Positions 12,869 through 34,409 of a stretch of 34,409 bases of DNA are shown here, one piece after another (the first letter of the stretch is position 1; each line of letters begins with the position of its first letter). The notes under the pieces are model-generated. The model saw only the letters and a list, made by a program, of their open reading frames with translations, did not search any database and was not told the DNA's origin. The stretch covers positions 1-34,409 of the forward strand of contig CANRGO010000020.1 in the NCBI GenBank assembly GCA_947630125.1, in the 5' to 3' direction. This stretch comes from an uncultured Lachnospiraceae bacterium. GTDB taxonomy: Bacteria > Bacillota > Clostridia > Lachnospirales > Lachnospiraceae. Made by a program: the position numbers and the translations under genes.

Positions 12869-12884
12869 TATAAACGTAATAATA

Positions 12885-13122
12885 ACGGATAGAGGTTGCG
12901 TACTTTATAAGTAGATTCTGGGATGTGGCAGACACAGGAGAACAGAATCAAAAGGAAAGCACGCCGAAGGAGGAGATGACTGCAGTCGATTCCTGGGCAT
13001 ATAGTGAAGAACTGTATGACTGTCATCTTAAACAGATGGGGAGCTATCGTAATGTAAAGAGACAGGTGTATTCACTTTGCAGAACAAAAGTATTTTAGCC
13101 GACCCCTTTTGTCGGCTTTTTC
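12885..13122 (+). ncRNA. Lysine riboswitch (L box) with transcription terminator
   Basis: The 394-base gap before dapA holds an L-box leader. Conserved blocks in the right order are AGAGGTTGCG (12891), GCCGAAGGAGG (about 12963), CTGGGCATA (about 12994) and ACTGTATGACTGTCAT (about 13010-13026). A P1 stem can form between about 12885-12895 and 13044-13053 (gatag/ctatc core). The expression platform is a strong terminator: AGCCGAC (13097-13103) pairs with GTCGGCT (13111-13117), followed by five Ts. ACAAAAG (13084-13090) is complementary to CTTTTGT (13106-13112), which overlaps the terminator's 3' arm, so it could be an antiterminator. By the known mechanism, lysine binding favours termination. 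Confidence 0.92.
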
Positions 13123-32032: not shown

Positions 32033-33865
32033 ATGAAAAAAGGACAATATGTAGTAGGATTTGTAAGAAAATTAGAATTTCCAAATAAAGGAATCGTAGA
32101 TGTATATCAGATTTTAGACATTGAGAGTCTGGAAGAAGTAAATCCCTTAGAACAGATTGCAATTACTGAACAAAGTGTTGTTCTGGGAAAAGCAGTTGTA
32201 AAAAATGTTCTTCCAGGTCAGAAAATTGCGTTTCGCATTAATAAATATCGAAATGGAAGAGGAGAAGGTGGTCTATTCGTTGTATTAGAGCCATCGCCTC
32301 TTGAAATAGAGTCACAATGCCCACATTATGGAATTTGTGGCGGCTGTAATTATCAATCCTTGCCTTATGAGACACAGCTCATCATCAAAGAGGAAATGGT
32401 GAAATCCTTACTGGAGCCTGTGCTTGCGTCTCAGGGACAAACCTTAGAAGAGGTCTTTGAACCAATCAAGGGTAGCCCGACACAAGCTGAATACCGAAAT
32501 AAAATGGAGTTTTCTTTTGGAGATGAGATTAAGGATGGTCCCTTATCCTTAGGTATGCATAAACGTGGTAGCTTTTACGATGTGGTAACGGTGGATCACT
32601 GCCAGCTAATCGATGAAGATTATCGTTTGATTCTGACCACAGTTAAGACTTTTTTCGAACAATTGGAAGAAAAACAGCAACAGAAAGTAAGCTTTTACCA
32701 TCGTTTGCGACACATCGGTTATTTACGTCATTTACTGGTTCGTAAGGCCCAGAAAACAGGAGAAATCCTGATTGCACTTGTTACCACAACCCAGGAGGAA
32801 GTGGATTTAACACCTTTGGTTGATTCTCTGTTAGCCCTTCAATCAGAAGGCTCAAAAAAATTAAAGGGCAGTATCGCGGGAATCTTACATACCAAGAATG
32901 ATTCGGTTGCGGATGTGGTACAAAGTGATGAGACTTTGATTCTTTATGGAAAAGACTATTTTTATGAAGAATTATTAGGATTAACCTTTAAAATATCACA
33001 GTTTTCTTTCTTTCAAACCAATACTTTAGGAGCGGAAGTTCTTTACACTGCAGCCAGAGATTTCTTAGGAGAAATGCAATTGGTGGACGGAATGAAGCCT
33101 ATCGTTTATGACTTATACAGTGGAACTGGAACCATAGCCCAGATGCTTTCAGCAGTCTGCAAAAAGGTCATCGGAGTTGAAATCATAGAAGAAGCTGTGG
33201 CAGCAGCCAAGAAAAATGCAGTACATAACAACATAACAAATTGCGAATTCATCGCAGGGGATGTGTTAAAGGTCATCGATACCATCACAGAGCAACCCGA
33301 TGTTATTGTTTTAGATCCACCTAGAGATGGCATCCATCCAAAGGCATTACAGAAAATCATTGATTATGGTGTTGATAAACTGCTTTATATTTCCTGCAAG
33401 CCTACAAGTCTTGCCAGAGATTTGCAAGTGTTAATGGAACAAGGATATAAGGTAAGTCGTGTGACGGCAGTGGATATGTTTCCTGGGACGGTACATGTTG
33501 AGACGGTTTGCTTATTGTCCAAACTCCATGAAGCAAAACATCATGTAAGTGTGAAGCTGGATATGGATGAGTTGGATTTGACAGCTTCAGAGAGTAAAGC
33601 TACATATGAAGAGATCAAGAAGTATGTGGCGGAGCATTATGATGGGATGAAGGTTACGAACCTGTATATTGCTCAGGTTATGAGAAAATGCGGTATAGAG
33701 TTGGCGGAAAACTTTAATTTGCCTAAGTGGGAAGGTGCTAAAGGTCTGGGGGACCTTTGTTCAGAGAGGACCGGAGTGGGAACGAAGACTGCTAAGCAGC
33801 CGCAGTGTCCGAAAGAGAAGGAAGATGCGATTGTGGAGGCGCTTAAGCATTTCAAAATGATATAA
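32033..33865 (+). CDS. rlmD: RlmD-family 23S rRNA uracil-C5 methyltransferase with C-terminal extension
   Basis: A SAM-dependent RNA m5U methyltransferase (RlmD/RumA family), 610 residues. An N-terminal TRAM-like domain is followed by a cysteine motif for a 4Fe-4S cluster (CPHYGICGGCNYQSL, about 97-111) and the methyltransferase domain. This has motif I YDLYSGTGTIAQ, the DPPRDGIHPKAL loop and the catalytic-cysteine region YISCKPTSLARDL, ending near VETVCLLSK (about 500). The remaining ~110 residues are a Clostridia-type extension (VKLDMDELDLTASESKATYE, NLYIAQVMRKCG, KQPQCPKEKEDAIVEALKHF). The extension contains an 18-codon segment with a palindrome and raised GC. The exact rRNA target (U1939 or U747) is not decidable by eye. 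The ribosome binding site is weak. Confidence 0.92.
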   Translation: MKKGQYVVGFVRKLEFPNKGIVDVYQILDIESLEEVNPLEQIAITEQSVVLGKAVVKNVLPGQKIAFRINKYRNGRGEGGLFVVLEPSPLEIESQCPHYGICGGCNYQSLPYETQLIIKEEMVKSLLEPVLASQGQTLEEVFEPIKGSPTQAEYRNKMEFSFGDEIKDGPLSLGMHKRGSFYDVVTVDHCQLIDEDYRLILTTVKTFFEQLEEKQQQKVSFYHRLRHIGYLRHLLVRKAQKTGEILIALVTTTQEEVDLTPLVDSLLALQSEGSKKLKGSIAGILHTKNDSVADVVQSDETLILYGKDYFYEELLGLTFKISQFSFFQTNTLGAEVLYTAARDFLGEMQLVDGMKPIVYDLYSGTGTIAQMLSAVCKKVIGVEIIEEAVAAAKKNAVHNNITNCEFIAGDVLKVIDTITEQPDVIVLDPPRDGIHPKALQKIIDYGVDKLLYISCKPTSLARDLQVLMEQGYKVSRVTAVDMFPGTVHVETVCLLSKLHEAKHHVSVKLDMDELDLTASESKATYEEIKKYVAEHYDGMKVTNLYIAQVMRKCGIELAENFNLPKWEGAKGLGDLCSERTGVGTKTAKQPQCPKEKEDAIVEALKHFKMI

Positions 33866-33939
33866 TTATTTTGTTAAGTTGGTTTGATGGTTATTCGAGA
33901 GTTTAATAGGTTATGAGAATTGATATATTAAACTAATGA

Positions 33940-34038
33940 AAATCTGTCCAGATGCAGGGAGTAATATATAATACTAGTGAAGTATTTTTTAAGGAAGATA
34001 CCTTTTTGGATATATTACTGCTTGACATAAGGATGCCA
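33940..34038 (+). pseudogene. Remnant of a response-regulator receiver domain
   Basis: A start-less frame open from 33940 reads TSEVFFKEDTF then LDILLLDIRMP at about 34006-34038. That is the phosphoacceptor-strand motif of LytTR-type response regulators (the Asp in LLLDI being the phosphorylation site). Homology stops abruptly after the Pro; the frame ends at a stop at 34072. There is no start codon or upstream beta-1 motif in frame and no output domain downstream, so this is a fragment of at most ~33 codons. It is recognised from the motif alone. Confidence 0.5.
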
Positions 34039-34039
34039 C

Positions 34040-34141
34040 GGCAACATCCGAGACTAGTGACGAAACCCGCATAAATACTGGGGTTGTGGAGATGACGAAA
34101 GTGAATTTACACCTTTTTTATACCGAATGGCGGATGTTACC
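34040..34141. repeat. ~100-base element with 11 bp imperfect terminal inverted repeats
   Basis: GGCAACATCCG at 34040-34050 is complementary, apart from one mismatch, to CGGATGTTACC at 34131-34141. Inside is a hairpin AACCC (34064-34068) / GGGTT (34081-34085), and GACGAAA occurs twice (34059 and 34094). One frame is open from 34026 to a stop at 34170 and contains MTKVNLHLFYTEWRMLPEIK from 34092. It could be a structured RNA, a MITE-like element or a degraded mobile element. No known family is assigned. Confidence 0.45.
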
Positions 34142-34172
34142 TGAAATCAAGATGTTTAAAAATGATATTTAA

Positions 34173-34188
34173 TCTGGATATATCCAGA
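34173..34188. repeat. 16 bp perfect palindrome
   Basis: TCTGGATATATCCAGA is perfectly self-complementary, between the palindrome-ended element and the terminator. It may be a protein-binding site or part of the degraded region. Confidence 0.6.
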
Positions 34189-34208
34189 AAGTAGTTTGGA
34201 TTAAAAAC

Positions 34209-34254
34209 AAAGCCTCGAGAATGGCGTGATTACGTGATTCTTGAGGCTTTTCTA
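34209..34254 (+). terminator. Intrinsic terminator in the rlmD downstream region
   Basis: AAAGCCTCGAGAAT pairs with ATTCTTGAGGCTTT with one wobble. The inner loop also has a CGT/ACG pair. A short T tract follows. It is the first plausible terminator after rlmD, 340 bases downstream. Confidence 0.75.
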
Positions 34255-34318
34255 TGGAGTACCAGTAGCAACACGTTTTTTATTGAAATAATGGTTGTGA
34301 TTTAATTTCGAAAATCGT

Positions 34319-34367
34319 TTGTTTTGCAAAAGTGGTTATGGTAAAATGGTTTTAAAATTAAACCATT
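34319..34367 (+). promoter_or_regulatory. Promoter with overlapping operator-like inverted repeat for the last gene
   Basis: TTGTTT (34319-34324), a 17-base spacer, TAAAAT (34342-34347). AATGGTTT (34345-34352), 7 bases, AAACCATT (34360-34367) is a perfect 8 bp inverted repeat covering the -10 and the likely start point, the usual place for a repressor site. Confidence 0.5.
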
Positions 34368-34400
34368 AAAAAATGATTTTTAGATAATGAGGATTAGAAT

Positions 34401-34409
34401 ATGAATGAA
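34401..34409 (+). CDS. Start of a truncated gene at the window edge
   Basis: ATG with GAGG about 8 bases upstream, reading MNE before the window ends. It lies downstream of a promoter and operator-like repeat. Nothing can be said about its product. Confidence 0.45.

Follow-up and report, generated by a model that had tools for sequence, protein, structure and literature searches.

The window examined here is a stretch of 34,409 nucleotides from an uncultured Lachnospiraceae bacterium, and the features of interest lie near its right end, beyond an rlmD-like gene. They comprise a short core, a spacer, a dyad and a pair of tandem repeats, arranged as follows.

33866–34033, no strand assigned: left flank after the rlmD-like gene; not the phosphatase gene
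34034–34048, plus strand: putative core TGCCACGGCAACATC, an exact match to codons of a low-molecular-weight phosphatase gene; the block in common with genome G352 has its left edge here
34040–34050, plus strand: left arm of a previously proposed inverted repeat, made up of most of the core and two element bases
34049–34066, no strand assigned: 18-nt spacer from the core to the 15-mer of the motif
34063–34085, plus strand: dyad AAACCC-GCATAAATACT-GGGGTT, with a widespread centre; read here as a putative bend module
34106–34113, plus strand: first candidate arm-type repeat TTTACACC, 57 nt from the core; found as GGTGTAAA in lysS elements
34117–34124, plus strand: second candidate arm-type repeat TTTATACC, at a period of 11 and 7/8 identical to the first
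34125–34409, no strand assigned: element side past the arm sites, resembling G352 as far as 34222; 34409 is the contig end
34131–34141, minus strand: right arm of the proposed inverted repeat; pairing not conserved

The 3′ part of the rlmD-like gene (33558–33865) is 70–82% similar to a second place in the genome, on contig C9, where the copy likewise ends a methyltransferase-like ORF. Elsewhere in the window a lysine riboswitch aptamer at 12882–13054 is the sole Rfam match at gathering score.

A sequence-only reading had taken 34040–34141 for a small element bounded by inverted repeats and lying beside a truncated receiver domain. The landmarks it described are present. The inverted repeat pairs at 10 of 11 positions, the heptamer TGACGAAA is repeated at 34058 and 34093, an ORF (33952–34074) crosses the left end, and the interior hairpin is located at 34063–34085. 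The inverted repeat is ordinary for the window, in which 49 pairs of equal quality (11 nt, at least 10 paired, 30–100 nt apart) occur, while 10 first-order Markov sequences have 41.9 on average; 34000–34200 contains one such pair, and at least one is seen in 4.3% of 300 Markov sequences. Its arms do not appear to be element ends, the right arm changing from CGG to TAG in the related genome G352 with no matching change in the left arm. The proposed boundaries also shift, with the block shared with G352 starting at 34034 and blastn similarity running past 34141 to 34222. What survives of the proposal that a mobile element has joined here is the junction with other sequence and its sharp left end, and what falls away is the identification of the 100 bases themselves with that element. 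The 32 residues up to LDIRMP gave neither a Pfam match (E ≤ 1, with HMMER filters that lose weak hits) nor a PDB sequence match at E ≤ 10, so that the receiver domain is suggested only by LDIRMP, which we take to be a response-regulator receiver motif.

The structure of the left edge is clarified by comparison with relatives. We found the block that starts at 34034 in one other genome, G352, where a 17-mer search of 397 family genomes located it; the two copies agree at 168 of 189 positions, and the G352 copy starts at exactly that base. Upstream of the block, G352 has the first 12 codons of a phosphatase gene, which then breaks off. Another genome, G398, has the phosphatase gene intact, with no stop over 150 codons and a match to the low-molecular-weight phosphatase family (LMWPc; Pfam, E 2.7e-35), and the nucleotide match between G398 and G352 stops at the same phosphatase codon. 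Taken together, the G352 junction and the intact G398 gene suggest that the 15 bp at 34034–34048 are a piece of the target gene carried along as a core. The window and G352, two genomes whose left flanks differ, have the same left edge, and the window's own left flank is other sequence and not the phosphatase gene; the element in the window seems to have joined sequence other than its usual phosphatase target. The draft genome contains one copy of the core with no mismatches and one other place with two. When 299 family genomes were searched at the DNA level, the inner motif turned up but the complete block was not seen elsewhere; 33880–34409 had no match in plasmids or phages, and GGCAACATCCGAGACTAGTG had none in viral contigs. 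Right behind the G352 arm (L344, 402–11220) are encoded a large protein without a Pfam match, a DEAD helicase with an MZB domain and a NERD plus helicase protein, genes that we take to be possibly a defence island.

The dyad is far more widely distributed than the block around it. A 181-base query gave weak matches in 7 of 298 other family genomes, each overlapping the inner hairpin. The exact 17-mer CCCGCATAAATACTGGG, at 34066–34082 in the window, is present in 34 of 397 family genomes, the window's own included, with none for the reversed control in that table. It was also found in at least 119 genome-collection stretches and 91 viral ones, although chance 17-mer matches are expected in such large collections and were judged by eye, from the loss of the A and T flanks. 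With E ≤ 1 as threshold, a covariance model of the motif had matches in 121 of 150 family genomes, of which many are weak and the E-values approximate. Among the variants of the centre are GCATAAACACT, GCATAAATACA, GCATGAATACT and GCATAAATAAA. One set of motif rows consists of 46 of 63 selected rows plus L030, the other 17 being omitted as likely chance 17-mers or doubles, and the scans of the ORFs nearest to motif sites covered 83 of 151 and 90 of 170 ORFs. Among 187 motif contexts, 20 lie within 100 bases of the limit of the sequence retrieved, in many cases but not all the end of a contig. The motif in the window is inverted relative to the guaA and lysS motif sets described below, as it is at L069 and L208.

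Several other contexts of the motif were seen. It lies near the 3′ end of serine recombinase genes at six loci (L016, L079, L109, L131, L133 and L136), with no tandem repeats by eye. The motif or close variants are also found outside clear attachment sites, in small MobQ plasmids, in the IncP-typed plasmid pRSB105 and a near relative, and in a Klebsiella jumbo phage. The variant GCATGAATACT lies between mobC and the replication gene of small E. coli MobQ plasmids and occurs twice between convergent genes of Klebsiella phage RaK2 (L259 429–450 and L261 2991–3114 being listed for both), and GCATAAATAAA is near a ParA gene in p60512-NR and pRSB105 (L260 5001–5035; L262 105–128). Phage intergenic sites with direct and inverted GTGGGC repeats (L196, L205, L210, L230, L366–L444 and others) have the motif at mid-site in 17 of 81 distinct cases, with different centres at that place in others. 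At L324 (2475–7580) two related surface-protein-like genes stand inverted with 349-nt inverted arms and the motif upstream of each; we considered this arrangement as an element and rejected it as an inverted repeat of such genes and their upstream regions. A multi-copy transposon was likewise rejected, the copies in G109 and G141 lying near contig ends with no interior found.

Some motif sites lie at the ends of target genes and obey a spacing rule. In guaA motif contexts, whose rows are not independent, the motif stands 19 nt from the conserved gene end in 49 of 51 (18 and 20 nt in the other two), and an exact tandem repeat, in every case of period 11, lies 23–25 nt on the motif's other side in 27 of 51. 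The distances in the window, 18 nt from core to motif and 57 nt from core to repeat, match this rule. In 19 lysS rows the motif distance is 18–20 nt in 8 and 28–29 nt in 11, with the repeat distance shifting along; these two spacing classes differ by about one helical turn. Of the 15 lysS repeats found, 12 have period 11, two period 12 and one period 9. Four phosphatase loci (L023, L025, L197 and L255) have a different repeat, GTTGATAAAA, and a motif 19 nt from a matching core. The layout of core, dyad and 11-bp-period repeat in the window is thus shared with guaA, lysS and phosphatase sites that have other cores and repeats. 'Lapin' MAG contigs with different taxon labels have identical element ends joined to different guaA genes, which implies that the motif belongs to the element.

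Gene ends were also chosen by protein match, independently of the motif. For guaA the protein matched in 106 of 120 genomes; we used the 30 loci returned and 40 chosen places, skipping some near contig starts, and 54 of these 70 loci were usable (the stop was missed by the pattern in 12, and fewer than 100 nt were left in 4). An 11-bp-period repeat 54–59 nt past the stop was present in 32 of the 54, compared with 0.18 expected from shuffling that, as in the Fourier tests below, preserves base composition only. In 28 of these 32 ends the strongest hairpin centre falls 25–28 nt after the stop, and in 4 it is elsewhere. By pattern, a GCATAAATACT-type centre is found in only 3 of the 32 arms, suggesting that GCATAAATACT is one version of a more general module. 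For lysS (protein matched in 98 of 120 genomes) we took 30 loci and 20 chosen ones, skipping long fused frames and contig edges; of these 50, 37 were usable and 21 had a repeat, 16 being of the short class and 12 of them nonredundant. A strict test over 165 nonredundant motif sites found an exact period-11 repeat in 14 on the 5′ side and 12 on the 3′ side, with period 9 also raised on the 5′ side (10 of 165). That most of these sites are without an exact period-11 repeat counts against the attachment-arm reading, as do the mismatch in the window's second repeat, the left flank that is not the phosphatase gene, a contig that stops before any integrase, the inverted motif in the window, and motif copies beside serine recombinases or in plasmids and phages with no visible attachment site.

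The guaA spacers have a pronounced rhythm, in which A/T and G/C alternate with a period of 10–10.5 bp. In the 32 guaA arms, A occupies position 17 in 31 and T position 37 in 31, G/C is dominant at 20–21 and 31–34, and A/T at 24–30. After removal of similar rows, which left 21 of 32 ends with the repeat and 20 of 22 without it, the Fourier power at 10.5 bp was 0.624 for the arms and 0.058 for the nonredundant ends without repeats, and none of 2,000 shuffles exceeded 0.089. For the 12 nonredundant lysS arms the power at 11 bp was 0.49, the highest shuffle reaching 0.135. The IHF consensus WATCAANNNNTTR was found between core and repeats in none of the 32 guaA elements and not at that place in the window either.

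Tyrosine integrases adjoin several of the guaA, lysS and phosphatase-type sites. All eight of the neighbouring integrases that were scanned have a Phage_integrase domain; three have the Tn916-type DNA-binding domain PF02920 and one the PF14657 arm domain. In one cluster of 17 neighbouring ORFs are six integrases that each lie closer to the motif than any other ORF and are directed towards it. No integrase was seen in the window, because the contig stops at 34409. At L197 (13854–13870) a phosphatase start region lies on the core's far side, followed by an integrase with the Tn916-type domain 754 nt from the motif, and the target gene may receive a new 5′ end from this element.

The window thus has a core at its junction identical to the target gene over 15 bp and tandem repeats at a set distance of 57 nt, with a period of 11 and one mismatch in 8. 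We consider it probable that the feature represents one half of the attachment site (attL or attR) of an integrating element served by a two-domain (heterobivalent) tyrosine integrase. Such an integrase would act at the core through its catalytic part and hold the repeats with its small N-terminal domain. For the integrase to sit on core and repeats at once, the intervening spacer would have to bend sharply, and the spacer appears fit for this, with A/T tracts one helical turn apart and G/C between them, around an A/T-rich dyad; the predicted bending is based on layout and base composition. GCATAAATACT, a common centre, would be read by a host DNA-bending protein (HU- or IHF-like), as its sequence conservation suggests. 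We infer that the dyad is a DNA-bend module at the place of lambda's IHF site, which may bend on its own, with HU or with some other reader protein.

In lambda, bending-protein sites between core- and arm-type sites let one integrase hold both (PMC4880445). The layout resembles the P′ arm of lambda attP (core, IHF site H′, P′1, P′2), in which core and arm-type sites are likewise split by a bend site and served by a two-domain integrase (PMC4880445). The Clostridia sites differ from this arm in having no IHF consensus, an 11-bp repeat period and a dyad with a 10-bp A/T–G/C rhythm. They resemble Tn916-type attachment sites in the PF02920 arm domain of three of the eight neighbouring integrases, and differ in having specific target genes with a shared core. 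For Streptococcus ICEs and IMEs in guaA or lysS, a paper on integration specificity contains the terms guaA, lysS and tyrosine integrase (PMC4701971). Searches of the literature by sequence string gave only unrelated papers, and no paper on the phased dyad was among those listed by topic.

Other explanations of the dyad account for parts of these data. The most serious, which we nevertheless think unlikely, is that it chiefly serves as a substitute transcription terminator, supplied by the element to a gene whose 3′ end it occupies, the central place of the dyad reflecting only the limited room between core and repeats. Many guaA-side dyads are indeed long hairpins (mean −22.0 compared with −11.2 kcal/mol when shuffled), and among 21 nonredundant guaA dyads the 8 bases following the stem include 5 or more T in 7 when read in the sense direction but in 1 when read antisense. 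Averaged over the guaA dyads, the T fraction on the sense strand is nevertheless only 0.42 against a background of 0.39, and over 148 motif sites it is 0.35 against 0.31, with at least 5 T in 24 forward and 22 reverse; given this small bias a plain terminator was rejected. No site combining a G+C-rich stem with a T run was found within 33866–34409, and a terminator by itself predicts neither the helical period nor the one-turn spacing classes at lysS. A second role as replacement terminator is plausible at some guaA sites, though not in general. That the motif and its flanking repeats form a replication origin, with the repeats as initiator sites and no attachment arm, is much less probable again. 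Such a reading draws on the phage family described above, in which GTGGGC is repeated directly on the left and in inverted form on the right of the same place, and on one neighbour cluster that looks like a D5-type primase, as we presume to name it, but it leaves unexplained the fixed distance of the repeats from the target-gene end at guaA, lysS and phosphatase sites, some of which adjoin integrases.

The two readings closest to the original description have little to recommend them. A structured RNA with a conserved loop, which now gives way as the best reading and has a marginally smaller chance of being correct than an origin, would fit the minus-strand fold, which is more stable than shuffles (z −3.14), and the pairing of the flanks (−12.2 compared with about −10.1 kcal/mol with swapped flanks). 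The plus strand, however, is no more stable than shuffles (z −1.14), no Rfam match was found at the window site or at the motif in 20 related loci, the per-position pairing excess is modest, and the motif has no single orientation relative to the genes beside it. The least credible of all is a small, independent mobile element bounded by terminal inverted repeats. The inverted repeat exists and the left edge is constant in two genomes, which is the part of the expected multicopy, constant-ended pattern that was borne out, but similarity continues beyond the right repeat, whose pairing was lost in G352, and the window has many repeats of this kind. The window's own draft genome (84.7% complete, 170 contigs) contains the stretch once, the next matches having E ≥ 0.39, and the multiple copies with constant terminal repeats of a MITE-like element were seen neither there nor in G352.

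The half attachment site that we favour for the window appears to be one instance of a broader pattern, in which a short module with the sequence rhythm of bent DNA looks to recur at the edges of many integrating elements of gut Clostridia. More tentatively, and with rather less than even confidence, we suggest that these elements share an interchangeable, conserved bend module with a host protein in the role of IHF, such that one module would serve many integrases, repeats and targets in either orientation. The presence of the motif in phage arrays, MobQ plasmids, pRSB105 and a jumbo phage indicates that its use may be wider than integration. To our knowledge, it is not well established how the integrases of Gram-positive mobile elements join core and arm sites when an IHF site is lacking. 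This joining would become directly testable with a module that is recognisable and helically phased, which would also provide a sequence handle for finding the edges of such elements in draft genomes.
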